DNA from: Candidatus Kapaibacterium sp. | GTDB taxonomy: Bacteria; Bacteroidota; Ignavibacteria; Kapaibacteriales; UBA2268 | Assembly (NCBI GenBank): GCA_026390695.1 | Contig: JAPLFL010000120.1 | Location: forward strand, 50,209 to 114,208 | Length of the DNA stretch: 64,000 bases | Direction of reading: 5' to 3' | Shown here: piece after piece, positions 4,359 through 50,790 of the stretch | How positions within the stretch are numbered: the first letter of the stretch is position 1 | Layout: every line of letters starts with the position of its first letter | The notes under the pieces: model-generated | What the model saw: the letters and a program-made list of their open reading frames with translations, nothing else | Told to the model about the DNA's origin: nothing | The model's database searches: none | Position numbers and translations under genes: made by a program

Positions 4359-5084
4359 ATGATGATTATACAACTGAAGTTACTTTTAAGTAATTTTAAA
4401 TTAATTTTAAAATTCCCCTTTATTCAGACAAGAGAACTTGAATGGGCCCATATTTTTCATGATAGCATTAGGGGCAGAGATTGGCTGGAAAAATTACCAT
4501 TGAATATTGGCCGTTGGGCAGGGAATTATTCTTTATTTTATATTCTAACCAGAATATTAATTGACTATAAACCAAAAAATATTATTGAATTTGGGTTAGG
4601 TGAATCAACAAAATTAATCTCTACTTTCATTAAAAATGAATTATTTGCTTCAAATCATGTTATCCTTGAACAAAGTTCAGAATGGATAGAAAAATTTCAA
4701 TCTATTTTTTCAATAATTGAAAATTCAAAGATCATTCACTTACCAGTTATCGAGTGTAAAGTTAACAAATATCTAACTTTTAGTTACAAAGACGTCGAGA
4801 AAACAATAAATGAAAAATTTGATTTATATATTGTTGATGGACCTACTGGTTCCGATCGTTTTTCACGTAATGATATATGCAAATTAGCCGATAAATTAAC
4901 AATAAATGATGAATTTATTATTTTAATTGATGATTACGATAGAAAAGGAGAAAAAGATACTGCCAAGGAATTAATAGATATTTTAAATAAAAAAGGCATC
5001 CCTTTAAATATACGAAAATATATAGGTAATAAAGAGCAATTGATTATTGCAACAGAAAAATATAAATTCTCAGTTTCATTTTAA
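4359..5084 (+). CDS. SAM-dependent methyltransferase-like protein
   Basis: This 241-residue soluble protein has a class I methyltransferase-like core. A glycine loop, IIEFGLGEST, lies at residues 75-84. It is followed by an acidic strand end (VILEQSS) and a later strand, FDLYIVDGPTGSDRFS, that resembles the catalytic-face motif of Methyltransf_24-type proteins. The LIDDYDR segment near 195 fits the next strand. It probably modifies a sugar or a lipid-linked intermediate, but the substrate cannot be read from sequence. AAAGGTC precedes the ATG. About 120 bp of AT-rich DNA separate it from the flippase. Confidence 0.6.
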   Translation: MMIIQLKLLLSNFKLILKFPFIQTRELEWAHIFHDSIRGRDWLEKLPLNIGRWAGNYSLFYILTRILIDYKPKNIIEFGLGESTKLISTFIKNELFASNHVILEQSSEWIEKFQSIFSIIENSKIIHLPVIECKVNKYLTFSYKDVEKTINEKFDLYIVDGPTGSDRFSRNDICKLADKLTINDEFIILIDDYDRKGEKDTAKELIDILNKKGIPLNIRKYIGNKEQLIIATEKYKFSVSF

Positions 5085-5095
5085 TTATATAAATT

Positions 5096-6010
5096 ATGAC
5101 ATTAGCACCAATAGTTCTTTTCGTTTACAACCGTCCAAAGCATACACAGCGGGTTTTGGATTCTTTAGCAGCCAACGCAGAAGCTAAAGATTCCGAGCTC
5201 TTTATTTATTGCGATGGCCCAAAAGAAGGTGCAAATGCCGATACTTTAAAAAGAATTGATGACGTGAGAACTTTGGTAAAACTTGAAAATAGATTTAAGA
5301 AAGTACAAATAATTGAACAAACAAAAAATAAGGGATTAGCAAATTCAATTATTGATGGAGTAACTGAAGTTGTAAACAATTATGGGACAGTAATTGTTTT
5401 GGAGGATGATTTAGAAACTTCAAAATATTTTCTGCAATATATGAATGATGGCTTGATAAAATATCAAAATAAAGATAAAGTGATTTCAATTCATGCTTAT
5501 TGTTATCCATTAAAAAGGATGCCAAAAGAAAATTATTTTATTAAAGGAGCCGATTGTTGGGGCTGGGCTACATGGAAAAGAGGTTGGGATTTATTTAATA
5601 GTGATTCTAAAGAATTGTTGGATACATTAATTAAACAGAAAGCTATAAATGAGTTCAATTTCGATAATAAACATAATTATTTGCAGATGCTTAAAGATCA
5701 AATAAATGGAAAGAATGATTCTTGGGCAATTCGTTGGTATGCCTCAGCTTTTTTAAATAATAAACTTACTCTTCATCCAAAAATATCCTTAGTTAGAAAC
5801 ATTGGTTTCGGTTCTGAAAGTACACATAATAAAGTTCTAAATTCTTTTTTTGATATAAATATATCAAGTAATCCAGTATATATAGACGACAAAGAAATTA
5901 TTGAATCTAAACCAATGAGAAAAGAAATTGAAAAATTCTATAGGTTTATGAATTTAAAAATCTTGATCAATACCATCCGTAATTATTTAAAAACTAAAAT
6001 TATCAGATGA
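5096..6010 (+). CDS. family 2-like glycosyltransferase (GNT-I/HlpA-like)
   Basis: The N-terminus, APIVLFVYNRPKHTQRVLDSL, is the pattern of the sugar-transferase group often labelled HlpA or GNT-I-like. The nucleotide-sugar metal-binding motif is EDD at residues 103-105 (VLEDDLE). CWGWATWKRGWDLF, around residue 155, is a second hallmark of this group. There is no membrane anchor. It starts 11 bp after the previous gene and overlaps the next by 4 bp (ATGA), so these are co-translated. Donor and acceptor are unknown. Confidence 0.85.
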   Translation: MTLAPIVLFVYNRPKHTQRVLDSLAANAEAKDSELFIYCDGPKEGANADTLKRIDDVRTLVKLENRFKKVQIIEQTKNKGLANSIIDGVTEVVNNYGTVIVLEDDLETSKYFLQYMNDGLIKYQNKDKVISIHAYCYPLKRMPKENYFIKGADCWGWATWKRGWDLFNSDSKELLDTLIKQKAINEFNFDNKHNYLQMLKDQINGKNDSWAIRWYASAFLNNKLTLHPKISLVRNIGFGSESTHNKVLNSFFDINISSNPVYIDDKEIIESKPMRKEIEKFYRFMNLKILINTIRNYLKTKIIR

Positions 6011-6813
6011 TAAAATTCATTAAATTAATTCTACCCCCTATATTTTTGGATTCCATTCACCGAATAATCAATCTCATTTGGGGATGGCATGGTAATTATC
6101 CAAGTTGGGAAATGGCACTTAAGAAAAGTACAAGTTATTCAAATAAAGAAATATTTGATAAAGTGAAATCTGCGGCTTTGAAAGTTAAAAATGGAGACGC
6201 CTTTTTTGAAAGAGATTCCGTACTCTTCTATCAAGAAGAATTGAATTATGAATTATTGACAACTTTAATGTTAATTTCTTCTAATTCCGAAAATGGAAGT
6301 TTAAATATCATTGATTTCGGTGGTTCTCTCGGAAGTACATATTTTCAAAATAAAAAGCTGTTAAGCCTTTTGCCTTCATTAAAATGGAATATTGTAGAGC
6401 AAGAAGAATTCGTTAAATTCGGGATAAAATATCTTCAAGATGAACATTTATCTTTTTATTATTCAATAAAAGAGTGCTTAGAAACAAATAAAGTTAATGT
6501 TATACTTTTCTCAAGTGTATTGCAATATCTTGAAAAACCATATGAATTTCTTAAAGAAGTATTGGGAAGTAAAATTGAATTTATTATCTTCGATAGAACG
6601 ATGATTAATCACAATTTGAAAGATAGACTAACTGTTCAAAAAGTACCTCCTTGGATTTATAAAGCAAGTTATCCTTGCTGGATTTTTGATAAAACAAAAC
6701 TAATCAATTTATTTAATTCTTCTTATGACTTACTTTATGAATATGATAATAAAATTGCTTATATTGGTTCTAGAGTAGAGCTTATTAGTTTGGTATTTAA
6801 ATGTAAATCTTAA
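6007..6813 (+). CDS. TIGR04325-type putative methyltransferase
   Basis: The 268-residue protein matches the TIGR04325 group of methyltransferases found in LPS and exopolysaccharide loci. It has an N-terminal WGWHGNYPSWEMA block (residues 25-37). The SAM loop, IIDFGGSLGS, lies at 101-110. NIVEQEEFVKFG follows, and then SSVLQYLEKPYEFL in the post-II region. A late IFDRTMINHNLKDRLTVQKVPP-type segment (written in part) fits the family end. The start overlaps the stop of the upstream glycosyltransferase by 4 bp. Probable role: methylation of a cluster sugar. Confidence 0.8.
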   Translation: MIKFIKLILPPIFLDSIHRIINLIWGWHGNYPSWEMALKKSTSYSNKEIFDKVKSAALKVKNGDAFFERDSVLFYQEELNYELLTTLMLISSNSENGSLNIIDFGGSLGSTYFQNKKLLSLLPSLKWNIVEQEEFVKFGIKYLQDEHLSFYYSIKECLETNKVNVILFSSVLQYLEKPYEFLKEVLGSKIEFIIFDRTMINHNLKDRLTVQKVPPWIYKASYPCWIFDKTKLINLFNSSYDLLYEYDNKIAYIGSRVELISLVFKCKS

Positions 6814-6843
6814 ACAATTTATAATTAATCTATTATTAAAATC

Positions 6844-7566
6844 ATGAAAAAAAAACTTATTAACTTTATTAAGCAAGAAATGTTCGCCCCTTCATTTTTT
6901 GGAATTTTTATTAATCCCTTTTATTTTATAAGACGAGGTTTATATAATGCAATAATTGAAAATAAAGATTTTATGAAAGGTTGTTTACTTGATTTTGGCT
7001 GCGGAAGCAAACCTTACAAGAATATTTTTAATGTTGAGAAATATATTGGTGTTGATATTGAAGTTAGTGGACATGACCATAAAAATGAAAATATTGATTT
7101 TTATTATGACGGTAAAACCCTTCCTTTTGAAAATGAGACTTATGATTCTGCATTTTCTTCGGAAGTTTTAGAGCATATTTTTACTCCTGATGCCATTATT
7201 AGTGAAATAAGCAGAGTTCTCAAATCCGGTGCTTATTTTTTAATGACTGTACCCTTTGTATGGGACGAACATGAAGTTCCATACGATTATGGTCGCTACT
7301 CATCTTTTGGAATAAAATTTTTACTTGAACAACATAATTTTGAAGTAGTTAAGATCTCGAAAACTTCGCATTATATTGAAGTTCTTTTTCAAATGTTAAA
7401 TGCTTACATTTTTCAAATTCTTTTCCCTGCAAATAAAATTCTTAAAATGCTTTTAGTCCCTTTCTTCATCGCTCCTATTACAATTACTGGAATGATAATT
7501 TCATTAATCTTACCGAAGAATAAGAGCTTTTACCATAATAATATCGTTGTTGCAAGGAAAAAGTAG
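6844..7566 (+). CDS. class I SAM-dependent methyltransferase (Methyltransf_11 type)
   Basis: The SAM-binding loop is LLDFGCGSKPY at residues 48-58, followed by YIGVDIE (motif II acidic residue) and SSEVLEHIF (motif IV/post-I region), all classic for Methyltransf_11. The last 60 residues are hydrophobic (two possible membrane helices, FFIAPITITGMIISLIL), suggesting association with the inner membrane and perhaps a lipid-linked substrate. It begins 30 bp after the TIGR04325 gene. The cluster therefore encodes three intact methyltransferase-like proteins plus a deleted one. Confidence 0.85.
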   Translation: MKKKLINFIKQEMFAPSFFGIFINPFYFIRRGLYNAIIENKDFMKGCLLDFGCGSKPYKNIFNVEKYIGVDIEVSGHDHKNENIDFYYDGKTLPFENETYDSAFSSEVLEHIFTPDAIISEISRVLKSGAYFLMTVPFVWDEHEVPYDYGRYSSFGIKFLLEQHNFEVVKISKTSHYIEVLFQMLNAYIFQILFPANKILKMLLVPFFIAPITITGMIISLILPKNKSFYHNNIVVARKK

Positions 7567-10341: not shown

Positions 10342-11013
10342 TTAACTGCCCTGACTTACAAATGCATAAGCGCTATCTCCGGTTTTAAAGCCGGCATCAG
10401 TTAATATTTGCTTTGATATGAAAATTGCATTTGTCCGGTCACTTTTGCTATCTGTATAGACTTGCATATTAAATTCAGGAATTTCCCACTGATAAAAATC
10501 CTTGGTTTTGTTAATACTTACAAAGTATGCGGCATTATTTAATTTATTGTATTTAAATCCGACAAATGTTTGACCGTAAAGTGAACTATTTATTTCCTTA
10601 TCAATATAAGTAAAAACATTTACTAAATTTATCGGATCGTCAATCAATTTTTGCATCGTCAACATAGTGCACTTGCTTACAGTTTTATGCTGCAATGGAA
10701 TATTTGATGTGGTCATAAACACATTTTCGCCAAGGAAATATAATCCGAAAATAGCGGTAGAATCGTACCCTGTTTTTGAAAAATAAATATCATAGGTGCC
10801 AATAGGGAGATTCTGTATGTTGAATTTTCCGTTAGCGTCAGTGAGATAAGTTTGGCTTATTCCCTTGACTTCCACTTTCACACCGGACAGGTTATTGCCG
10901 GCATCATCGCTAATCTGTCCCATCAGATCGCCGGTTTTACCGTTTAGTAGTGAATTATCTTTGCAAGATGAAATTAGCATGATTGCTATAAAAATCATAA
11001 ATAAGTTTTTCAT
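10342..11013 (-). CDS. lipoprotein with one carboxypeptidase-regulatory-like domain
   Basis: The signal peptide MKNLFMIFIAIMLISSC ends in a lipobox (LISSC), so lipidation at C17 is expected. Residues about 30-95 (GDLMGQISDDAGNNLSGVKV, DANGKFNIQNLPIGTY, FSKTGYDS) are a typical CarboxypepD_reg-like beta-sandwich. The C-terminal 110 residues are unassigned. A good Shine-Dalgarno sequence, TAGGAG, lies 5 nt before the ATG. It probably sits in the outer membrane or on the surface. The domain is related to those repeated in the lipoprotein at 18110. Confidence 0.8.
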   Translation of the reverse strand: MKNLFMIFIAIMLISSCKDNSLLNGKTGDLMGQISDDAGNNLSGVKVEVKGISQTYLTDANGKFNIQNLPIGTYDIYFSKTGYDSTAIFGLYFLGENVFMTTSNIPLQHKTVSKCTMLTMQKLIDDPINLVNVFTYIDKEINSSLYGQTFVGFKYNKLNNAAYFVSINKTKDFYQWEIPEFNMQVYTDSKSDRTNAIFISKQILTDAGFKTGDSAYAFVSQGS

Positions 11014-11196: not shown

Positions 11197-13350
11197 TTAT
11201 CTTGAAATAATGGCTTTCGCTGTTGTTCTGCCGCTTGGAGAAATCAGTCGGTAGAAATATGATCCCTCTGTAAGACAAGAAGCATCGTGCTTGGCTTTAA
11301 ATGTGCCAGGCGGATGTTTGGGATTATTAACAATATCTTTAATAAAATTTCCGGAATTGTCATATACAGATATTCTGACTCTCCCTTCTTTCTCAACTTT
11401 ATATTCAAGTTCAACCAGACTTTGGGATGGGTTGGGATAAGATTTAACCCAATCCGTATTTCCCCTTGAAGGTAAAATTATTGCTTTGTAATCTGACCTA
11501 TAAATTACGGCTGTAGTATCACGAACTTTTAATTGAAAATAAAAACTACTATCACTGATTAAAACCATTGAAGGAATAGTATCAGGATATTCAAAAATTC
11601 TAACCGTATCCATATAAGTCCACAATGTAGAATCAGGACTGAAAACTTGATCAGGATAAGGCATTGACTGGCCTTCCCGAAGATGAAAATTAATTTCATG
11701 AAAGGGACGTGCAATTACTGTATCTGCAATTGTATCATGGTAAATATAATTCGGATCATGGATATTTATATCAATCATATCATAAACAGTTGATTCTTCC
11801 ATTAACTGATTCGATTTTTCCTTATTGATCGGTTTTTGTATTATTGGTGATGAGTTGAGACATTGATATGATCTATAAACATCGCAGCCACTGGTATTGG
11901 GAACAATGTGTACATCACAGCCATTTTCCAAAAGAGATCCATCTTTTAACAAAATCTCTTTCGAAGCAATTAGTTCTGCTTTTGCTGTATTTTTAATCGT
12001 ATAATTTCCTTGGGAGAGTGCATCTGATAAGTGAGGATTAACATTTTTGCCAACAATAACCTTTTCAACTGCAGAAAACTTTGGGCGATTATTTATCGGA
12101 GAACTGTTTAAAACACTTGGAATACCATAGAAGATATCGTTCTGCAAATATATCTCATTCGGACATGGCACCAAACCTGCCCTGATACAAAACCAATAAA
12201 GAAGAGTCGCTTGAGTTCTAATATAGTAGTTCATTAGTATATCAGCTTGTTGATTTATATGAGTATCTGAGTACTCATTTTCGGGTGCTCCGAGTTCATT
12301 ATATTTGGCAGTGAGGAATGGGGTTGCTCCTTTTGGTAGATTAATGTTTCCTCCATTCCTTAGAGGAAAATTTGTTTGATCAAACCAATTAGAAAAATGA
12401 TCTGTGAGCTGATTCAATTGATAGAACATATAAAAAAAAGCCTGGTCATCAGGCATTGAGAATACTTCATTTAATAAACCGCCAGTTCGACGAGATGTGA
12501 TAGCTGTTCTCAAAATAGCTGGGAAATCAGAATACCTTATATAATCGCAATCGTCATATTGATCTCCATTATTCCCTGACCAAATTTCATATTTATCTCC
12601 CTGATAAATATTACATACATGTGGACGAATATGGACATGTATTGGTATTGAATTATCACATAAAAGATGAGCTATCCGACCAAGTATAATAAATGCATCA
12701 GCTAATCTTTTATCCAATGGAAGTTCAAGCCAACGAGATACATCTTTTTGTCCTCCCCATGTTAATATTAATCTTTTGAACCATAAATCATCATTTACTA
12801 ATCCAAATAAACTATTGTAGTGATATTCTCGGTTAGAAGAAGCATACCAATTTGATTTTTCCTGAACTGTACCCAAATCATAATAAACAGTATTATGCTT
12901 TGTTGAACAGTGGGCATCATCATCTCTGCCGAACATATAACGATATGCTTTATCGAATGCGTTCTCATATACATAAGGCCATGAGGGGAAATCGATATTT
13001 TTATCAAAATCCCTGTTGTCTCCTTGCCAGAAATGTGTAATTGCTTCCGACCAACCTGACCATATGCTATATTGCCATTTCGGGTCATACTGATCTTCCA
13101 GCCAAGCACCATAAGCAAAGTTGCCATCAGTCGAATATAAAAATGGGAATCTCTCTTGGTTATATCTAGGATAATTGTATAAATCTTGTATTCCCAAATA
13201 ATCTTCAATCTGAGGCAGACTTCCTATATCATTTAAAAGGAATTTGCATGATTCCATAGCCAGATGAAAATGTACCCAATTCTTGTGTGCATGACTATTT
13301 GTTACAAATAAACAAATCATTATCGTTAAAATTAAAACTATTTTTTTCAT
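11197..13350 (-). CDS. secreted zinc-dependent phospholipase C-like protein with T9SS C-terminal domain
   Basis: The signal peptide (MKKIVLILTIMICLFVTNSHA) is followed by HKNWVHFHL. A central helical segment, LGRIAHLLCDNSIPIHVH at roughly residues 226-244, resembles the zinc-ligand helix (H...D...H) of the phospholipase C/S1-P1 nuclease fold. About 320 residues of unassigned sequence follow. The last 85 residues (SYPNPSQSLVELEY to GSYFYRLISPSGRTTAKAIISR) are a T9SS type A sorting domain, so export across the outer membrane is expected. The enzyme activity is inferred from one motif region only. AAGGA lies upstream of the ATG, and the gene follows a 196-residue membrane-protein gene by 11 bp. 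Confidence 0.65.
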   Translation of the reverse strand: MKKIVLILTIMICLFVTNSHAHKNWVHFHLAMESCKFLLNDIGSLPQIEDYLGIQDLYNYPRYNQERFPFLYSTDGNFAYGAWLEDQYDPKWQYSIWSGWSEAITHFWQGDNRDFDKNIDFPSWPYVYENAFDKAYRYMFGRDDDAHCSTKHNTVYYDLGTVQEKSNWYASSNREYHYNSLFGLVNDDLWFKRLILTWGGQKDVSRWLELPLDKRLADAFIILGRIAHLLCDNSIPIHVHIRPHVCNIYQGDKYEIWSGNNGDQYDDCDYIRYSDFPAILRTAITSRRTGGLLNEVFSMPDDQAFFYMFYQLNQLTDHFSNWFDQTNFPLRNGGNINLPKGATPFLTAKYNELGAPENEYSDTHINQQADILMNYYIRTQATLLYWFCIRAGLVPCPNEIYLQNDIFYGIPSVLNSSPINNRPKFSAVEKVIVGKNVNPHLSDALSQGNYTIKNTAKAELIASKEILLKDGSLLENGCDVHIVPNTSGCDVYRSYQCLNSSPIIQKPINKEKSNQLMEESTVYDMIDINIHDPNYIYHDTIADTVIARPFHEINFHLREGQSMPYPDQVFSPDSTLWTYMDTVRIFEYPDTIPSMVLISDSSFYFQLKVRDTTAVIYRSDYKAIILPSRGNTDWVKSYPNPSQSLVELEYKVEKEGRVRISVYDNSGNFIKDIVNNPKHPPGTFKAKHDASCLTEGSYFYRLISPSGRTTAKAIISR

Positions 13351-15663: not shown

Positions 15664-17907
15664 CTATTTTTTGGGTTCTTTTTTCTTGTCGGCATCCGGT
15701 GGAACAAGAGGTGCTGGTTTGGTCGTATCTTTATCGTCAGAACCTCCGCCCCAGATGTTGTTTTTAAAGAAACTTTTGATTGAGTTGAGATTCACTCCGT
15801 TTATTTTTGCACTATCAACAAGCGTACCCGGATCATCCAATGCTTTTTCGAAGTTTTTAATACCGTCAGTCTTGAGCATATCGGATGGATTATCAAATTT
15901 ATTTTGAAGATTCTTCATCATCTCATCCGGCAAATTCTTCAGATTTTTCGGATCGACCTGTATTTTCTTAGGGTCGGCTATGAACGGACTGAGGGATTGT
16001 TTCCTGCCTGTATCCACAGTAAAAGGATTATTGGAAATTTTCAATCCCGAATCAATTTTTGTCTTTTTCTGAATTGAATCAGGCATAGTCTTGCCTGATC
16101 TAACAGCGGTCAAATAATCGACAGACAGACGAACATCGGCAGCATATTCGGATTTAGGGTATTTTTCTAATAATAATTTATAATAAACCAAAGCAGAATC
16201 GAATGACAATAAGTTTTTCTCATATATCCAACCGACAGAATAAAGTGCTTTAGGAGCAAGCCGGTGATTCGGATAAATTTTCCAGCAATTATTGAATTGT
16301 TTTAATGCAAAATCAAATTCTTTGTGCTTACGCAATTTATCGCCTGAACTGTAAAAATCTTCAGCACTGTCGATTACAAAATCTTTTTCGAGTTTGAGTT
16401 GAACTACAGCATCTTTTGAATATTCTGTCAGAGGATATTTTTCAATAATTGACTCATAAACCGAATTGGAGAGGTATAAATCACTTTTTCTAACGGTTCT
16501 GGCATAAGCATAAAGATAACGCGGAGCTTTTTCGTCTGACTTAGAAAAATTCTCAGATGCTTTTTTGTAGTAATAAAGAGTAGAATCTTCATTGCCGAAA
16601 AGTTCATGGGTTCTTCCTAATTCAAAAAGAGCCGCAGATAGAATCGTGAGATTAGAATCGTTCAAAGAAGTATTGGCTTTGATTTTAGCAAGAAGGGGAG
16701 TAACCGTAACAATCCCTCTGTCCCACTGATTGAGCAGATTAAACATTCTTTCGCCGGTTTTTTGAACAGTGGTTTTAGTTGCTCTTGATCTGGCGAAATA
16801 TGTTCTTGCTTCAACCCACTGATTATTTTCAAAAAGTTCCATTCCACGTTCAAATAGTACACCTGAAACAAGTGGATTACCTGTGAATGCAGAGTCAGAG
16901 GCTTTTTCCATTTTTTTCATTTCATCAAATTTTTTCTTAAGTCTGAGTTGATTTAATCTTTCTGCGGCAACATAACCGTGCCACTCGGCATTTTTAGTAT
17001 CTTCTTCGAGTGCTACTAAGATTTTGTCTGCTTCAATAAATTTCCCCAAACGGTTGAGGCATGATGCTCCATATAAACTTGCTTCAAAATCGGTTACATA
17101 ATCAGGACTATATGCTTTCACTTTTCTAAATTCAATTTCGGCTTGTTTAAAGCGACCTACACGGAATAAAATTGCAGCCAGATCAACCTGCCATCGGGCT
17201 TTTTGTTCTTCGTCATCGCTTTGTACTATTGCTTGTTTGTAAGGTTTATATGCAGCTTCAACATCACTTTGGTACAAAGCAAGTTCTGCTTGCAGTCTGA
17301 AAGCGGTTGAGAGAATATCGTAACGTTTCTTTTGCCATGCAATATCGATGGTTCGGGATAATAAAATTTTACCCTGATAAAATTTCTGTTGAATCAGATA
17401 GACTTCAGCCATCAGTAAATGAGCATCAGGAGAAAGTTCACCGGCAGGGAATTTATCAACGAGTTCGCTGCATTTAATTTGTGCGCTTCCCCATTCATTT
17501 TTATAAAAATATGCTTTAGCCATCAAAAATAAAGTACCTTCAATGTAAGTGCTCTTATAGTGCCGAGCCTGAATTTTTGACCCTTTTATAATAACCGAAT
17601 CCAATTTGACTTCCACTGGTTGTCGCTTTTGCTGGCTAATAATAAAATCCTTCATAAAGGGCGGAGTACCGGTTACTAATGCGGGAATTATATTTTTAGG
17701 CTCTGGAACAAAGGCCCGAGGAAATTGTTTCTTTACAACATTTTCCTGATAATCAAATTCATCTTCCGACTCTTTGATTAAACGATTTGCATTCCAATAT
17801 GTATTATAATAGGTTGTAAAATCATCGGTATTTTTACATGAATCCAGCAATAATGACATCCACACAGCTATTACAGCAAAGAAGCAAATTTTTTTCATAT
17901 TTTTCAT
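15664..17907 (-). CDS. TPR lipoprotein, SprE/PorW-like (possible T9SS accessory protein)
   Basis: A lipoprotein signal ends in LLLDSC (C24). Right after it comes TTYYNTYWNANRLIKESEDEF, an opening seen in SprE/PorW-type proteins of gliding and T9SS organisms (residues given as the family pattern only). From about residue 115 to 620 there are many TPR-like helix pairs (AYFYKNEWGSAQIK, KALYSVGWIYEK, ALVYYKLLLEKYPKSEYAADV). The last 120 residues are low-complexity and charged, ending DKKKEPKK. In Bacteroidota, SprE/PorW is an outer membrane lipoprotein needed for T9SS, and three likely T9SS cargo genes are in this window. The assignment is moderate; a generic TPR lipoprotein is the alternative. 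A second start (ATG at 17898) is equally good. Confidence 0.65.
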   Translation of the reverse strand: MKNMKKICFFAVIAVWMSLLLDSCKNTDDFTTYYNTYWNANRLIKESEDEFDYQENVVKKQFPRAFVPEPKNIIPALVTGTPPFMKDFIISQQKRQPVEVKLDSVIIKGSKIQARHYKSTYIEGTLFLMAKAYFYKNEWGSAQIKCSELVDKFPAGELSPDAHLLMAEVYLIQQKFYQGKILLSRTIDIAWQKKRYDILSTAFRLQAELALYQSDVEAAYKPYKQAIVQSDDEEQKARWQVDLAAILFRVGRFKQAEIEFRKVKAYSPDYVTDFEASLYGASCLNRLGKFIEADKILVALEEDTKNAEWHGYVAAERLNQLRLKKKFDEMKKMEKASDSAFTGNPLVSGVLFERGMELFENNQWVEARTYFARSRATKTTVQKTGERMFNLLNQWDRGIVTVTPLLAKIKANTSLNDSNLTILSAALFELGRTHELFGNEDSTLYYYKKASENFSKSDEKAPRYLYAYARTVRKSDLYLSNSVYESIIEKYPLTEYSKDAVVQLKLEKDFVIDSAEDFYSSGDKLRKHKEFDFALKQFNNCWKIYPNHRLAPKALYSVGWIYEKNLLSFDSALVYYKLLLEKYPKSEYAADVRLSVDYLTAVRSGKTMPDSIQKKTKIDSGLKISNNPFTVDTGRKQSLSPFIADPKKIQVDPKNLKNLPDEMMKNLQNKFDNPSDMLKTDGIKNFEKALDDPGTLVDSAKINGVNLNSIKSFFKNNIWGGGSDDKDTTKPAPLVPPDADKKKEPKK

Positions 17908-18109: not shown

Positions 18110-20638
18110 ATGAAAAATTTTTTGAAGCGATTAACGTTCACAATGCCATTGATTGCATTAGGATTAATTGTATTCTTTGCATGTCAGGACAGAGTAGCTG
18201 CTCCTTCGTACAATAGTACAATTTCCGGAGTAATTGAAGATCCACAAAGCTATGGTGTTCCAAACGCAATTATTATTGCATCGGACATGACAAGTAAAAT
18301 TCTAAGCACTGATACTACTGATGAAGATGGTAATTATTCTTTATCAAATCTTCCTGAGAATTTTGAAGCTGTTAATATTTTAATTACTTCACCTGATTTT
18401 AAGCCATTAGCTTCAAAACTCTCGACAATTTCAAAAGGTAAAGATTCTAAAAAATTACCGATACAATTAATGGGACAGGACACCTGCAGCGGTAAGTTAA
18501 AAGTTACCGTTTTAGATAAAACAACAAATGAACCTGTTTCAGGAGTGGAAGTTCGCATTAACCGTGAGAAAACTGTAATTCGTAAAGCAAATACGAATAA
18601 TCAGGGCGTCGTTATTTTTGAGAATATGTGCGCAGGCGGACTTTGGGCACGTATTGCCAAAACCGGATATAGAGTAATCGAACAGAATTTTACTCAATCC
18701 GGCACTGATACTACAAAATTGAATTTCCAATTTGAAATTATTCCTGTTGATACTTGCTGCAAAGGTGTTGTTACTGTTACTATAAAAGATTCAGCAACAG
18801 GACTACCAATTAACGGAGCAACTATCAGATTATTTAAAAACGGAATAAGAGTTGGTGATGACCGCAAAACCAATGATAATGGTGTATATATATTTACCGG
18901 AATGTGCCCTGGTGATTATCAGATTTCTTATTTCAAAGATTCTTATACAGGTGCTGAATATAACTTTACTTTACATTGCAATGATACCGTAAGTTATACT
19001 CGCTACCTCAATCATTTGTGCTGCAACGGTAAAGTAAGAATTAATGTAAAAGATGATCAGGGCAATAATCTTGATGTTGCCGCTGTTTCTATTCTGAAGA
19101 ACAATGTTGTAATTGTTACTCAATATACTGCAATGGGTTTTGTTGTGTTCAGAGAATTATGCGAAGGTTCATATACATTTAAAATTTCCAAACAAGGTTA
19201 TTTACCTAATCCTTACACAATTATTTTCCCAGTATCTTGCAATGATTCATTAACTAAAGATGTACAGCTCAATTCAATTCCAGATAGCTGCTGCAAAGGT
19301 ACTTATACACTTACATTATTAGACAGTTCAAATAATAATATTCCTGTGCCTGCAGCCAAAGTTCGCTTCTGGTCTGGTGATAAATACACTGAATATATTA
19401 CCGATGGTAACGGAAAAGTAGTTATTACCAATATATGTTCAGGTCCATACACCGTTTCTTACTTCAAAGAAGGTTGGACTGGCGGAGAATATAAAATTGA
19501 GTTTAAATGCAGCGAAACCAAGATGGAATCAAAATACATGAAGGAAAATTGCTGCGATGGGACAATTAAAATCAATGTTAAAAATGATAAAACACAAGAC
19601 CCACTAAATGGTGCCACCGTTAGGATTTATTTAAATGGTAAATTATTAACTACATTAATTGTAGAAGGTGGCTTTGTTAAATTTACCGGATTATGTGCAG
19701 GAACATATAGCTTAAGTATTACAAAAGATGGATTCAAGGGTATTGAATTCCCACAGGTTATTAAATGCCATGATGCAATTGAACTTAGCAAAGCATTGCT
19801 TCCTGATACAGCCTGCTGCAACGGAGTAGTTTCTGTACTTCCTGTCGATTCAACCACTCGTCAGGCTTTAACCGGAGCTAAAGTACAGATTCGTAAAAAC
19901 GGAACAGTTCTCACTACATTGACTGTTGAAAATGGCAATCCAGTTATTTTCCGCGGATTGTGCGAAGGCACTTATAATTTCGTTCTTTCATTTAATGATA
20001 AATATTATACAACCGATAATTTAAATGTAACTATTAAATGTAATGACGAATTCTCTTTAACAAAAGGACTGTTACCAGTTCCCGCAAAAGATACATGCTG
20101 TCGCAATGTCATTAAAATTGGAGTGACTGATACATCAAATGGTAATGCAATTCAAAATGCCCTTATTAGATTATTCAAAGGTGGAACTCAGGTTAATTCA
20201 AAATATACTGGTGATAATGGTTATGTTACCTTTGGTGAACTTTGTGCCGGTACATATTCAATATCTGCAAATAAAGACGGATATAACGGTAAAGAACTTG
20301 GTCAATTGGTCGTAACCTGTACCGATACCTTAGTCAGAAATCTTGCTCTCAAAGCAAAAGTTACCGATACTTGCAAAACTGCTGTCATCAGAGTTCAGGC
20401 AAAAGATACAAGTGATAACTCATTTATTGTTGGAGCCACTGTTCAGATTCGCAAGAATGGTGTTGTAATAGCAAGCGGGACAACCAACAGTGAAGGCTGG
20501 TTCGCTGCCGATGGTCTTGCCGGATTATCAACTTATAGTGTTCGTATAACAAAAGACGGATATGTAGCAGTTGAAAAATCATTCACATTCACGAATGATT
20601 GCGGAACTAAGTCCGAAACTGCCTGGATGCATAAATAA
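18110..20638 (+). CDS. lipoprotein of tandem Cys-rich carboxypeptidase-regulatory-like repeats
   Basis: The lipoprotein signal ends in VFFAC (C25). The rest is an N-terminal carboxypeptidase-regulatory-like domain (ISGVIEDPQSYGVPNAIIIA) and eight repeats of about 90 residues. Six repeats open with a CC pair (CCKG, CCNG, CCKG, CCDG, CCNG, CCRN) and two with a single Cys. Most also carry one Cys in the middle (MCAGG, MCPGD, LCEGS, ICSGP, LCAGT) and one near the end (HCND, SCND, KCSE, KCHD). About four cysteines per module suggests disulfide-stabilised beta-sandwiches forming a long surface rod. Function unknown; an adhesin or envelope spacer is a guess. It is a single gene followed by a strong terminator. 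Confidence 0.8.
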   Translation: MKNFLKRLTFTMPLIALGLIVFFACQDRVAAPSYNSTISGVIEDPQSYGVPNAIIIASDMTSKILSTDTTDEDGNYSLSNLPENFEAVNILITSPDFKPLASKLSTISKGKDSKKLPIQLMGQDTCSGKLKVTVLDKTTNEPVSGVEVRINREKTVIRKANTNNQGVVIFENMCAGGLWARIAKTGYRVIEQNFTQSGTDTTKLNFQFEIIPVDTCCKGVVTVTIKDSATGLPINGATIRLFKNGIRVGDDRKTNDNGVYIFTGMCPGDYQISYFKDSYTGAEYNFTLHCNDTVSYTRYLNHLCCNGKVRINVKDDQGNNLDVAAVSILKNNVVIVTQYTAMGFVVFRELCEGSYTFKISKQGYLPNPYTIIFPVSCNDSLTKDVQLNSIPDSCCKGTYTLTLLDSSNNNIPVPAAKVRFWSGDKYTEYITDGNGKVVITNICSGPYTVSYFKEGWTGGEYKIEFKCSETKMESKYMKENCCDGTIKINVKNDKTQDPLNGATVRIYLNGKLLTTLIVEGGFVKFTGLCAGTYSLSITKDGFKGIEFPQVIKCHDAIELSKALLPDTACCNGVVSVLPVDSTTRQALTGAKVQIRKNGTVLTTLTVENGNPVIFRGLCEGTYNFVLSFNDKYYTTDNLNVTIKCNDEFSLTKGLLPVPAKDTCCRNVIKIGVTDTSNGNAIQNALIRLFKGGTQVNSKYTGDNGYVTFGELCAGTYSISANKDGYNGKELGQLVVTCTDTLVRNLALKAKVTDTCKTAVIRVQAKDTSDNSFIVGATVQIRKNGVVIASGTTNSEGWFAADGLAGLSTYSVRITKDGYVAVEKSFTFTNDCGTKSETAWMHK

Positions 20639-20658: not shown

Positions 20659-20693
20659 AAAAAGCCCGGATCTGATAAGGTTCGGGCTTTTTT
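20659..20693 (+). terminator. intrinsic terminator
   Basis: AAAAAGCCCG pairs with CGGGCTTTTT (10 bp, extended by G-T and A-T pairs) and is followed by further T residues. It lies 20 bp after the stop of the Cys-rich lipoprotein gene, where an intrinsic terminator is expected. The A-rich 5' arm would make it usable on the other strand too. Confidence 0.9.
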
Positions 20694-21160: not shown

Positions 21161-24100
21161 TTATTTAATCAATGTCATTTTTCCAGATAACTTCTTTCCT
21201 TCAAGATCAAGTTCATACAGATTGATCCCAGATGTTAGAAATTCTGTGTTAAATTCGAATCTGTGTATTCCCAATGTTAAATATAATTCAAATATTGTTG
21301 CCTGTTTTTTGCCATTAACATCGAAAATACTAAGTTTAGCTTCTGATGCTGCGGCTATGGTAACTTCGAATAAAGATGAAGTTGCAGTATAATTAGGAAT
21401 GCATGTAATTTTTGAATTAATATCATCATTTTTCTTAACATCACTTGTTGCATCTGTCCGAATGATAAATTTCCTTGCAGATGTCCATTCACTGCCATTC
21501 TTTCCGTTTAGTGAGCTAACTCGCCAGAAATAAAGACCATCACCGATTAGATCAACTTTAAAGGAATTGTCAATAATATTTTTATTTTCAATGATTATAT
21601 TATTGAAGTCCTCATCCCTTGCTACTTGAAGCCAATAAGTTTCTGCTTGATCCGATGATTTCCATAAAATTTCTATTTTATTAATAGTGATTGTGTCATC
21701 ATCAGTAGGAAGCAATGATTCAGGCTTTTCCAATGAAGTTGTTAGTTTAAAAGCTTTTAGCCAATAAGTGGGATAACTGTTGGAGAATTGAGGTTTAATA
21801 CTCCAATAATAAGATTGATTGTGATTCAATCCTGAACAATTAAAGTTAGTATCAGTGCCATCCTGATAGAAGGTTTGAGAATTCATAGAAAGCAGAATAT
21901 CGTCTGCAATTTGAATATTATATCCAATCGCATGGGGAACTGGATGCCATGTAAAAGTGGCATTTACAGGCACTTTGTATTCATCATCACTTGGATAAAC
22001 TAATTGAGGATTGGTTGAAAAACTCCGAACCGCAGACCAATTGCCTATTGTCTCTCCGTCATAAGTATGAACTCTCCAATAAAATGTTGAATTGTAATAT
22101 AAATTATTATAATTATAACTCGACATTGAAATGATTTTATCAATAATCATAAATTTGAAGGCTGAATCTCTAGCGACTTGTATTCTATATGTAAGCCCGT
22201 TAGGTACAGTATCCCACTTAATTACGCCGCTACTGGCAACATTCTGGGATTTGTCATCAGGTAATATTAAATTTGGTATTCCTGCAATAATTTTATATTG
22301 CCAGATTTCCGACCAGAGAGTAGTTGTATCTTTTGATTTCCCACGTACTCTCCAATAATATCTTGTAGAATGATCAAAATCTTTATAATTATATTCACTT
22401 ATATTTAAATTTGTTGCTTCGGTTTGTAATTTTTTACATGTAGAATCTTTGTAAATTTTAATCTCATAATTTGTGATTCCGGGAATAGAATCCCAGATCA
22501 ATGTGCCGGATGGCTCTAAACCGGAATATTTATTTTCAGGATGACGTAGATTAATTTTGAATGAATTAGTTGTAAAGCGACTTGCACTTGTCCACAAACC
22601 GCTCAAACCATTTTTGAAAGCTCTGACTCTCCAATAATATATTGTTTTCATATTTAGGAAATTTTTCTGATGATGGCTTGTATCGACTGTAACAAATTCG
22701 TAAATAACTTGTAAAAAATCTTCAGTTAAAGATACTTGAAATTGATAGTTTTCAACATCGTTAATCTTAGACCATTTATACCTTGGAGTAAGCGTTATGG
22801 CAGATGAATTGTTTACTGGAAATATAGGTTCGGGTGATCCGATGCCCGTATTGAAAATATTAATTTCAGACCAATTACTAACGCAATTGTCATTTAATTT
22901 GCATACCCGCCAAAAGTATTTTGTACTACCGGATAAAGATTTAACCAATAAACTATTAGAAGTGATTCCGATTGTGTCTTTTACAACATTATCAAAATTT
23001 TCAGATGATGATATTTGTACTCTGAATTTAACATCAGTTGTACTTTTTTCCCAAATTAAACTTAGAGAGTTGGGGGATATTGAATCAGAATTATTTTCGG
23101 GATAAAGAAGCGTAGGAGCATTAAGAGAGATGCTTGCAATAATAAATTCGCCAAAATTCTCACTATTGACTTCTAAAACATTTAATTGAGAATTGTAATT
23201 TGTTTGAAGCAATTCAAAAGAGCCAAATCCCTCATTGGAACGTTTGAAAATGCGTAATTGTTCAGGTTTAAATATAGATTTTATATTAGTCAAATCAAAT
23301 TGTATTTGGGAAGAAATAACTTCCAGAGATTTTTTACTAATAACCCATCTGTATGGCAACACCTGGCATCCGGGAGTATTTTTATAGCTAATATTATATG
23401 GTTGATAAGCATGTTTTTCAACTGATATAAAGCCTGATCCAGTCAATTGATCTATGTCAATCTTAATACCGGTAGTATTTTTATTATTATTAAAATTATA
23501 TAAGCCTTTGGACGAAATATCCATGAAGACTGCATCCATAATAAAACAGTTGCGTAATGATTGATAAAAAACTGATTTTTCCGGTGCACTCATCTCGAAT
23601 GAGATTTTAGCATTAGAATCAATCTCAGTAGTAGCAACTCTATTAGTGGTATTTAACCCCCAACCGATTATAGTATTGCCATTAATCAATCGTGTAGCCG
23701 ATCCCATAAATGATGAGAAAATATCAGGACTGTGCCTGAATTCCCAAACTTTTGTCGCGGTTTTATTTTCTTCATCTATTTTGTATTCAACAGCTCGTGA
23801 GAATTTTGTAGGCTTTAAAACACCATTATCATATAAAAGAATATGTCCGTTTGCTAAACGATGTGGATTGTGCTGGTGCGAGAATCCAGTGAAACCATTA
23901 TAGGTGTCATTAGTGAAAGTGAACTGATTTGCTCTTGATTTTGTTCCGCCCATTTTCCATATAATTTCCCCAGTTGATCTGTTTATTTTGATTATCTCGT
24001 CAAGATTTCTAAAATTTAGAAAAATATTCCCATCAATATCATATATTGCGGTATTAAGATGATAAGCATCAATTTCTTTTGATAATAAAGAAATGTCTTC

Positions 24101-24655
24101 GGTTGCTTCGGTCAGATCAATATGTTCACCGGTTTTCCACTGAAACAGGACAGATTTATTTGTACGATCAAGTTCATAAATCCAAATATCTTGAATAATC
24201 GCTGATGTATCGCCGCCAGTCACAATATGCGACATATCTTTCATATAAGGATTATCCGAAGCAACAAGATAATTACCTTGAGGTGAAATATGAATTGTAT
24301 GAAAATTAAGAGTCATTGCGTCATTCGATACAATGCTATCCAAAATGTTTAAATTTTTATCTAAAATAATCCACTTTTTTTGATCTATACTAAAGAAAGC
24401 AAAGCTACTATCTTCGAGTAATCGTAGAGCAATAAATTGATTCCCATAGGATGAAAAATCCTTTGTAAAAGCTGCTTTACCGCTATTATCATATATTGAT
24501 AGAACAGGACCGTTTGTTGGACCTATAAAAATATAACCAGGTGCAGGATTATCAATTGAATTAACTTCAAAATCAATTAAATTGCTTGAAATTGCACTGG
24601 ATGCTCCGATTATAAGGTCAATATATAAGAAAACAAAAGTGTAAAAAAGTTTCAT
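21161..24655 (-). CDS. arylsulfotransferase-like (ASST) secreted protein with Fn3-like repeats and T9SS domain
   Basis: The signal peptide starts at the ATG at 24655 (MKLFYTFVFLYIDLIIGASS); the frame continues upstream to 24712 without a better start. Residues about 20-370 match the arylsulfotransferase beta-propeller family, including FHTIHISPQGNYLVASD and GFSHQHNPHRLANGHILLYDNG; the latter histidines fall where ASST has its active site. From about residue 510 to 1060 there are roughly six Fn3-like modules with the recurring YYWRV signature. The last 90 residues are a T9SS-type domain ending SGINLYELDLEGKKLSGKMTLIK. At 1164 residues it is one of the largest genes here. ASST proteins move sulfate between phenolic compounds; the real substrate is unknown. 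Confidence 0.75.
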   Translation of the reverse strand: MKLFYTFVFLYIDLIIGASSAISSNLIDFEVNSIDNPAPGYIFIGPTNGPVLSIYDNSGKAAFTKDFSSYGNQFIALRLLEDSSFAFFSIDQKKWIILDKNLNILDSIVSNDAMTLNFHTIHISPQGNYLVASDNPYMKDMSHIVTGGDTSAIIQDIWIYELDRTNKSVLFQWKTGEHIDLTEATEDISLLSKEIDAYHLNTAIYDIDGNIFLNFRNLDEIIKINRSTGEIIWKMGGTKSRANQFTFTNDTYNGFTGFSHQHNPHRLANGHILLYDNGVLKPTKFSRAVEYKIDEENKTATKVWEFRHSPDIFSSFMGSATRLINGNTIIGWGLNTTNRVATTEIDSNAKISFEMSAPEKSVFYQSLRNCFIMDAVFMDISSKGLYNFNNNKNTTGIKIDIDQLTGSGFISVEKHAYQPYNISYKNTPGCQVLPYRWVISKKSLEVISSQIQFDLTNIKSIFKPEQLRIFKRSNEGFGSFELLQTNYNSQLNVLEVNSENFGEFIIASISLNAPTLLYPENNSDSISPNSLSLIWEKSTTDVKFRVQISSSENFDNVVKDTIGITSNSLLVKSLSGSTKYFWRVCKLNDNCVSNWSEINIFNTGIGSPEPIFPVNNSSAITLTPRYKWSKINDVENYQFQVSLTEDFLQVIYEFVTVDTSHHQKNFLNMKTIYYWRVRAFKNGLSGLWTSASRFTTNSFKINLRHPENKYSGLEPSGTLIWDSIPGITNYEIKIYKDSTCKKLQTEATNLNISEYNYKDFDHSTRYYWRVRGKSKDTTTLWSEIWQYKIIAGIPNLILPDDKSQNVASSGVIKWDTVPNGLTYRIQVARDSAFKFMIIDKIISMSSYNYNNLYYNSTFYWRVHTYDGETIGNWSAVRSFSTNPQLVYPSDDEYKVPVNATFTWHPVPHAIGYNIQIADDILLSMNSQTFYQDGTDTNFNCSGLNHNQSYYWSIKPQFSNSYPTYWLKAFKLTTSLEKPESLLPTDDDTITINKIEILWKSSDQAETYWLQVARDEDFNNIIIENKNIIDNSFKVDLIGDGLYFWRVSSLNGKNGSEWTSARKFIIRTDATSDVKKNDDINSKITCIPNYTATSSLFEVTIAAASEAKLSIFDVNGKKQATIFELYLTLGIHRFEFNTEFLTSGINLYELDLEGKKLSGKMTLIK

Positions 24656-24939
24656 AGAATTTTGATAAGTTAAACATAATCTTAAAATAATAAAAAAAAC
24701 AATATCCACCAAACTATTTTATTAATAAAGGTTAAAAATAATATTAATACTAAAATATATTTTTATTCTACTGGTGCCAATTCGTTTAGAAGGTAAATTA
24801 GTTTTTCATTGAGCTCAAATGAAATATTAATACTAAAGAGATGATCATTTTTATCATTTACTAATTTGTAGCAGGAATGACATTCAGAATATTTTATTCC
24901 TTATCCATGCAAAATTGGCCCATTCATAACTTTTAATTC

Positions 24940-43249: not shown

Positions 43250-43375
43250 AATTATAAGTTATGAGTTATGAATTATGAATTATAAGTTATGAGTTATGAA
43301 TTATAAGTTATGAATTATGAGTTATGAGTTAAGAGTTAAGAGTTATGAATTATGAATTATGAGTTACGAGTTGGG
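43250..43375. repeat. short degenerate repeats (GTTATGAATTA type)
   Basis: A run of 7-10 bp units of the form GTTATGA or ATTATGA with small variants follows directly after the VOC gene stop. It has the character of a microsatellite in a non-coding spacer and seems to have no coding content. Confidence 0.8.
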
Positions 43376-43483: not shown

Positions 43484-43633
43484 ATAGAAGGTAGAAATGT
43501 AGAAGGTAGAAATGTAGAAGGTAGAAATGAAGAAGGTAGAAATGAAGAAGGTAGAAATGTAGAAGGTAGAAATGTAGAAGGTAGAAATGAAGAAGGTAGA
43601 AATGTAGAAGGTAGAAATGTAGAAGGTAGAAAT
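43484..43633. repeat. 15-bp minisatellite, ten units
   Basis: Ten head-to-tail units of GTAGAAGGTAGAAAT (or GAAGAAGGTAGAAAT) alternate in an irregular order, and a partial unit follows. On the - strand the frames stay open and give ISTFY-like pentads, but without a proper start or flanking coding sequence. It resembles the 21-bp array at 1750 in being an in-frame-multiple repeat in non-coding DNA. Confidence 0.92.
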
Positions 43634-43747
43634 GAAGAATAAAAATCCCCTTACCAGCAAAAGTTAACAATTATACACATCTTTTAAATATTCACAGAGT
43701 AATGGATCAAAAACCTTAGTAGAATAATTTCAATATGTTAGATACAA

Positions 43748-50340: not shown

Positions 50341-50790
50341 TCAATTTTCTTTCTCTTCAGATTTACAATCGTGCTTGTGGCAGCAACTTTTGCAACGTAT
50401 TAATCTTATTATTATCAAAATAAAGATGATAATTAATAATACTAATAAAATCATTCCAAGAATTGCAAAAGTAGCCATGACACAATGTCCACATCCTGAA
50501 TGTTCTCTTTCGGTTTCGCATCTTTCTTCGTGTCCCATCTGCTGACTGCACATCATTTTATGTTTATCGCAACTGCCCTTATCCGAAGCACAGCATTTAT
50601 CATTGTCCACGCACTGCATTGTGCTGCATTCGCCTTTATGAGCCGTATTGCATTTTGAACTATCACTATGCATTGAACATTTACTGACTGAGCCGGTATT
50701 GGCTGCACCTTTGTTTGCGTCATCTTTTTGAGAATAAGCCAGTACACTGAACATGAACATTAGCATTAGTACTAAAGCTAATTTTTTCAT
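50341..50790 (-). CDS. Cys-rich exported membrane protein
   Basis: 149 residues. The signal peptide (MKKLALVLMLMFMFSVLAYS) is followed by about 80 residues with some ten cysteines, in motifs such as CSMHSDSSKC, CSTMQC, DKCCASDKGSCDKHKMMC and CGHC. A single membrane helix follows at about 105-130 (VMATFAILGMILLVLLIIIF). The short tail again has Cys and His (RCKSCCHKHDCKSEE). The layout suggests metal binding on one or both sides of the membrane, but no family is known to me. GGAGG lies upstream of the ATG. It is a single gene next to element B. Confidence 0.65.
   Translation of the reverse strand: MKKLALVLMLMFMFSVLAYSQKDDANKGAANTGSVSKCSMHSDSSKCNTAHKGECSTMQCVDNDKCCASDKGSCDKHKMMCSQQMGHEERCETEREHSGCGHCVMATFAILGMILLVLLIIIFILIIIRLIRCKSCCHKHDCKSEEKEN

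Follow-up and report, generated by a model that had tools for sequence, protein, structure and literature searches.

CnaB/SpaA-type domains of Gram-positive stalk and pilin proteins (Cna, BcpA, SdrD B, TIE) carry an isopeptide bond that links the first and last strands, the positions of its triad being a Lys in strand A, a Glu in strand E and an Asn or Asp in the last strand. According to the available part of one report, the CnaB-type shaft domains of FimP (Actinomyces oris) and SpaA (Corynebacterium diphtheriae) additionally bear a disulfide, one in a domain, beside the isopeptide bonds of the chain (PMC3485203). A further account, likewise available in part, describes CLIPPER (DUF11) and other isopeptide domains as components of fibrillar-adhesin stalks, also in Gram-negative bacteria, with disulfides co-occurring (PMC12617251); CLIPPER has a CnaA-like fold and an isopeptide bond, a pattern other than the one presented here. 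The available portions of these two sources hold no tandemly repeated domain in which a CC pair provides a double staple without an isopeptide bond (PMC3485203; PMC12617251).

The gene described here lies in a 64-kb stretch of DNA from Candidatus Kapaibacterium sp. (the window), and its product consists of modules that share fold and tandem layout with the CnaB/SpaA-type domains but lack a conserved Lys-Glu-Asn triad, predicted disulfides taking the place of the isopeptide bonds. In both cases a single covalent link would fasten strand A to the beginning of the last strand. Whereas FimP and SpaA have a single, differently placed disulfide in a domain (PMC3485203, as far as available), here there are two predicted disulfides per module, no isopeptide triad and up to 10 cysteine-bearing modules in tandem. 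Unlike sortase-anchored pilins, the chain has a probable lipid anchor and no sortase motif. A literature search whose coverage excluded most subscription papers and preprints returned nothing on a CC-module lipoprotein of the Kapaibacteria-related clade.

Architecture and predicted fold

ORF 18110-20638, on the forward strand, encodes 842 residues, 29 of them cysteine. The features of the gene are collected in Table 1. Cysteine makes up 3.44% of the product, as against 1.04% in the other ORFs of the window (5,846 residues), and the six CC pairs compare with a mean of 0.94 and a maximum of 5 in 20,000 shuffled copies of the protein. A hydrophobic segment at the N-terminus runs into F-F-A-C25-Q-D, which makes C25 the probable lipid anchor on the basis of the translation; position -3 of a lipobox is usually L, V or I, and here it is F. 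Beyond C25 there are only repeats, and the chain ends inside M9, with neither an LPXTG-type motif nor a membrane segment at its C-terminus.

Table 1. Features of ORF 18110-20638 and its 3' flank (positions are those of the window; aa, residues of the product).
Feature	aa	Position	Strand	Cysteines and predicted pairs	Basis
Signal peptide and probable lipid-attachment Cys	1-24, C25	18110..18184	+		translation; helix 2-25 in AlphaFold2 model; equivalent Cys after hydrophobic stretch in relatives
M1, CarboxypepD_reg-type beta-sandwich	26-125	18185..18484	+	Cys-less	model strands 34-119; Cys-less modules of relatives
M2	126-215	18485..18754	+	half set C126 and C174; predicted pair second N-terminal Cys/D-E-turn Cys	
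M3	216-303	18755..19018	+	predicted C216-C290, C217-C266	
M4	304-393	19019..19288	+	predicted C304-C377, C305-C351	
M5	394-480	19289..19549	+	predicted C394-C467, C395-C443	
M6	481-568	19550..19813	+	predicted C481-C553, C482-C529	
M7	569-662	19814..20095	+	predicted C569-C644, C570-C618	
M8	663-754	20096..20371	+	predicted C663-C737, C664-C712	
M9, terminal	755-842 and stop	20372..20638	+	half set C755 and C831; predicted pair first N-terminal Cys/F-G-turn Cys	
GC-rich hairpin and T run, probable terminator		20659..20693	+		by-eye reading of sequence

The mature product is modelled as nine beta-sandwich modules, M1 to M9. An earlier note on this DNA had counted eight modules, six of them opening with CC and most carrying two further cysteines at fixed places; these proved to be M2 to M9, of which M2 and M9 hold half sets, with the cysteine-free M1 as a ninth. 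CC pairs stand at the starts of M3 to M8, and all six of these modules have the two further cysteines at equivalent places. In the models the CC precedes strand A directly, one of the remaining cysteines lies in the D-E turn and the other in the F-G turn; by the secondary structure of the AlphaFold2 models, every module cysteine either precedes strand A or sits in one of these two turns.

Assignment of the modules to the carboxypeptidase-regulatory family, as made in the earlier note, was borne out by Pfam, in which CarboxypepD_reg (PF13620) scored 228.9 bits against a cut-off of 32.3 over eight stretches of the product; the Pfam matches include no catalytic domain, NCBIfam gave nothing over its cut-off, and a sequence search of the PDB gave no match. 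AlphaFold2 yielded nine beta-sandwiches for the whole chain (7 sequences; mean pLDDT 77.6, pTM 0.32) and seven strands per module for M6 to M8 (14 sequences; mean pLDDT 90.9, pTM 0.45). Because pTM is low (0.32-0.45), the mutual orientation of the modules is left unpredicted; a rod shape of the chain is plausible. Among solved structures, Foldseek placed M6 to M8 closest to Gram-positive stalk proteins, namely a TIE protein (6fwv, E 1.4e-16), an ancillary pilin (4oq1), the pilin BcpA (E 1.5e-10 or better), SdrD B and the Cna B repeats (E 1.7e-8). In VIA-align the top row was SleC (9h68; Z 14.4, rmsd 2.2, 94 aligned); close behind it came the transthyretin-like domain of CPD (5aq0; Z 13.3, rmsd 1.4, 82 aligned) and then CnaB2 (8bdw; Z 12.9, rmsd 1.8, 90 aligned). 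The M6 to M8 model thus has both the transthyretin-like seven-stranded sandwich of PF13620 and, by 8bdw and the Foldseek matches, the CnaB fold. It shares sequence family and fold with PF13620 and differs in the CC-C-C set of its tandem modules; to our knowledge, cysteine is not a feature of that family as a whole. The isopeptide triad is absent from 256 aligned CC modules, in which Glu reaches at most 9% at any strand E position (columns 53-59), Asn and Asp together at most 15% in the last strand (columns 76-83), and Lys 50% in its best strand A column.

Relatives and genomic context

Searched with the whole protein, 35 of 60 related genomes gave homologues (E<=1e-5) and the window's own genome gave a second copy; an 84-position module profile matched 57 of 100 relatives (E<=1e-8). 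The cysteine pattern of the modules is kept in these relatives. Of 296 genomes sampled across the phylum, the same profile matched 4 (E<=1e-14), one being that of the window itself, two others belonging to the same family and the fourth to the same class. Named matches are metagenome-assembled genomes labelled Ignavibacteria, Ignavibacteriae, Bacteroidetes, Candidatus Kapaibacterium or just bacterium; three Muribaculaceae loci gave one module match each, without CC. Judged from the sequences, the CC module, for which a search in other genomes had been proposed, appears largely confined to one Kapaibacteria/Ignavibacteria-related order in the genomes sampled. Reading frames that are not cut short hold between 4 and 11 modules, and in one of them (L009) three modules are nearly identical, as would be expected if length changes by duplication.

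Gene neighbourhood was considered as a clue to function and set aside, as it is not conserved over most of the 27 loci compared, the lipoprotein gene alone being shared by the majority. In five of the 27 the CC lipoprotein gene is immediately preceded by a gene for a penicillin-binding transpeptidase, namely in L044 (transpeptidase gene at 5041-6927), L049 (7898-9742, reverse strand), L048, L052 and L056, and in L044, L049 and L056 relatives of the Wzz and Wzy_C genes stand ahead of the transpeptidase gene; Pfam was run on the L044 copies of these genes and, for the transpeptidase, also on that of L049. In the window, 202 bases separate ORF 18110-20638 from a divergent gene for a TPR lipoprotein (15664-17907, reverse strand), whose product matches PorW/SprE of the type IX secretion system (T9SS) only in part and below threshold (91 bits against a cut-off of 250). 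This divergent neighbour and the terminator-like hairpin downstream, which an automatic scan allowing loops of 3-8 did not list, suggest that ORF 18110-20638 is probably its own transcript.

Cysteine pairing inferred from paired loss

Cysteine sites were classed by position relative to strand A in 350 complete modules from 53 reading frames, after exclusion of 14 modules that were incomplete and of one frame in which CC occurred less than twice. The first and second N-terminal, D-E and F-G cysteines are all present in 245 modules, and a further 39 have the full set but with the CC displaced by one residue towards strand A. Sixteen modules keep only the second N-terminal and the D-E-turn cysteine and five only the first N-terminal and the F-G-turn cysteine, while mixed half sets (second with F-G only, or first with D-E only) occur in none of the 350. 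Cysteine is missing altogether from 42 modules, 41 of them first modules. Three exceptions remain: M2 of L055, without an F-G cysteine but with an extra one just upstream; M2 of the other copy from the window's genome (L006), with a cysteine at another place; and M4 of L091, which is aberrant. So clean a split of the 21 half sets would arise by chance once in 20,349 if they were independent, which they are not, as a single module of one genus accounts for four of them and second modules for most; a weakly supported tree of M1 and M2 (49 rows) has at least six changes between CC and a single cysteine at M2.

The F-G cysteine stands 24 residues past the D-E cysteine in 184 of the 245 normally placed modules and in none of the 39 shifted ones, which indicates that the CC site and the F-G site move together. 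Since every second residue of an extended chain faces the same side, a cysteine shifted by two places could possibly bond the F-G partner instead. Two disulfides within each full module, one from the first cysteine to the F-G turn and the other from the second to the D-E turn, are accordingly a well-supported prediction from the aligned sequences, and pairing within modules, as proposed in the earlier note, gains good though indirect support from paired cysteine loss over the 350 modules. A vicinal disulfide within the CC is at odds with the half sets, which keep one N-terminal cysteine. Applied to ORF 18110-20638, the scheme predicts 14 disulfides, with all 28 module cysteines paired and none spare. 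Counting against the scheme, the mature chain has an even number of cysteines in only 27 of 40 complete frames, a weak test that depends on an automatic lipobox call known to be misplaced in at least two; inspection by eye of the 13 odd-count frames traced L051 and L063 to a misplaced lipobox and several others to an extra cysteine in M1 or in a loop.

Oxidation and cellular location

Neither DsbB nor VKOR was matched in any of the 60 relatives, while the DSBA family was found in 15. The window's own genome has no match to DsbB, VKOR, the DSBA family or Thioredoxin_4, and has 15 matches to Thioredoxin_2, of thioredoxin fold. A thioredoxin-like protein encoded 3' of the lipoprotein gene in one genus was considered as an oxidase and dismissed, as it has no CxxC. 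A Bacteroides control genome is likewise without DsbB, VKOR and DSBA matches, so that the absence of DsbB and VKOR is not specific to the clade. The available part of a recent study reports that Bacteroidota do form envelope disulfides (PMC12635249); together with the Bacteroides control, this means that the lack of DsbB and VKOR does not show a reducing envelope.

The Bacteroidota surface lipoprotein signal (LES) is described, in the part of the source available, as short and acidic, of K-(D/E)2 or Q-A-(D/E)2 type, at +2 to +6 after the lipidated cysteine (PMC5080379). Here C25 is followed by Q-D-R. An acidic residue occurs at +2 to +4 in 14 of 17 family members and in 10 of 18 other lipoprotein-like ORFs nearby, proportions that do not separate the two groups. 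Taken as a whole, the interpretation offered in the earlier note is partly supported: the domain family is right, in-module disulfides have good indirect support, and the cysteine pattern is limited to one clade in the genomes sampled; the oxidising surface environment and the dedicated structural role that it read into the protein are plausible.

A proposed disulfide-stapled stalk

Taken together, the present data allow a model in which the architecture, the module fold (as a high-confidence prediction), the paired loss of cysteines and the clade distribution are the established parts. By a modest preference, we regard the protein as a probable outer-membrane lipoprotein that forms an extended stalk of transthyretin-like or CnaB-like modules, the full ones stapled by two disulfides. 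Two staples would hold the beginning of strand A in every full module, with the F-G turn as partner of the first cysteine and the D-E turn as partner of the second; both staples would sit at the pole by which the chain enters. The disulfide of the first cysteine would span about 72 of the 88 residues (C481-C553 in M6) and link the lead-in to strand A with the beginning of the last strand, such that a pull between the ends of the module may bypass most of the fold, as it does with the isopeptide bond of Gram-positive pilins. Duplication would alter the number of modules, and the length of the stalk may vary with it. We infer disulfide formation, the location at the outer-membrane surface and a mechanical stalk role, whether as spacer or as adhesin. 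Against this reading weigh the lack of DsbB and VKOR matches in the 60 relatives, the low pTM, a surface-signal comparison that does not set the family apart, and half sets that are not independent of one another.

The cysteines could instead be joined between neighbours, the F-G cysteine of one module bonding the first cysteine of the next to give a covalently stiff rod, as the position of the CC at the module junction and the short linker might suggest. However, M2, which has no F-G cysteine, would then leave a free cysteine in M3, and the F-G cysteine of M9 would have no partner, whereas the intramodule scheme pairs all 28. Moreover, the first and the F-G cysteine missing from a half set belong to the same module in 16 of 16 half sets of that kind, and strand parity, as read from the strand order of the models, would place the F-G turn and the module's C-terminal end at opposite poles, which leaves staples between modules scarcely credible. 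It is also conceivable that the four cysteines in each module coordinate a metal ion, Zn or Fe, at the pole of entry and form no disulfides, given that the models would bring all four to one pole of the fold and that no DsbB or VKOR oxidase was found in the 60 relatives. Yet a four-cysteine site would be expected to vanish as a unit or to accept replacement by His or Asp, and 21 modules keep exactly two cysteines that are always the same partners; a metal site is accordingly judged highly improbable.

A third alternative concerns location and leaves the staples in place. The protein might be a periplasmic spacer or envelope linker, tied for example to the T9SS or to cell-wall growth, and not a surface stalk. 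The position of the gene directly 3' of a penicillin-binding transpeptidase gene in five of 27 loci, the divergent TPR lipoprotein with its PorW/SprE match in the window, and the failure of acidic residues at +2 to +4 to set the family apart from other lipoproteins all speak for it, as does the finding, in the part of the source available, that known Bacteroidota join outer-membrane proteins to a periplasmic track by disulfides (PMC12635249). However, most loci show no conserved neighbourhood, and the repeat-only make-up and variation in length resemble those of surface stalks; on balance, a linker role is considered rather doubtful.

If disulfides form in the surface stalk that we prefer, they would constitute another way, beside isopeptide and ester bonds, to lock a stalk domain against pull, and this in a Gram-negative lineage. 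They would also supply a disulfide-rich family of substrates in bacteria that lack the known oxidases, and thereby a way into the question of how disulfides are made in them. A bolder form of the model, which we consider unlikely, is that of an order-specific Gram-negative surface stalk in which the double staple replaces isopeptide locks, and for which cells without DsbB or VKOR must depend on a thiol oxidase not yet recognised, or on ambient oxidants, to make at least 14 correct disulfides per chain. The pattern of paired loss implies a specific connectivity that can be tested cheaply.

Other features of the window

Elsewhere in the window, a single CarboxypepD_reg domain occurs in a short lipoprotein-like protein (10342-11013, reverse strand), and a protein with a T9SS tail is encoded nearby at 11197-13350. 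In the product of the reverse-strand gene at 21161-24712, an Arylsulfotransferase-type domain precedes fn3/Ig-like repeats and a T9SS sorting tail that scores below threshold. An exported-looking protein of 149 residues (50341-50790, reverse strand) is rich in Cys and His, has a membrane segment near its end and may bind metal. An Rfam search of the window gave no match. Two short tandem-repeat arrays, of 7 and 15 bases, lie at 43252-43372 and 43485-43639, and a tandem repeat with a 21-base unit in 13.8 copies spans 1749-2037, where ORFs overlap on both strands.
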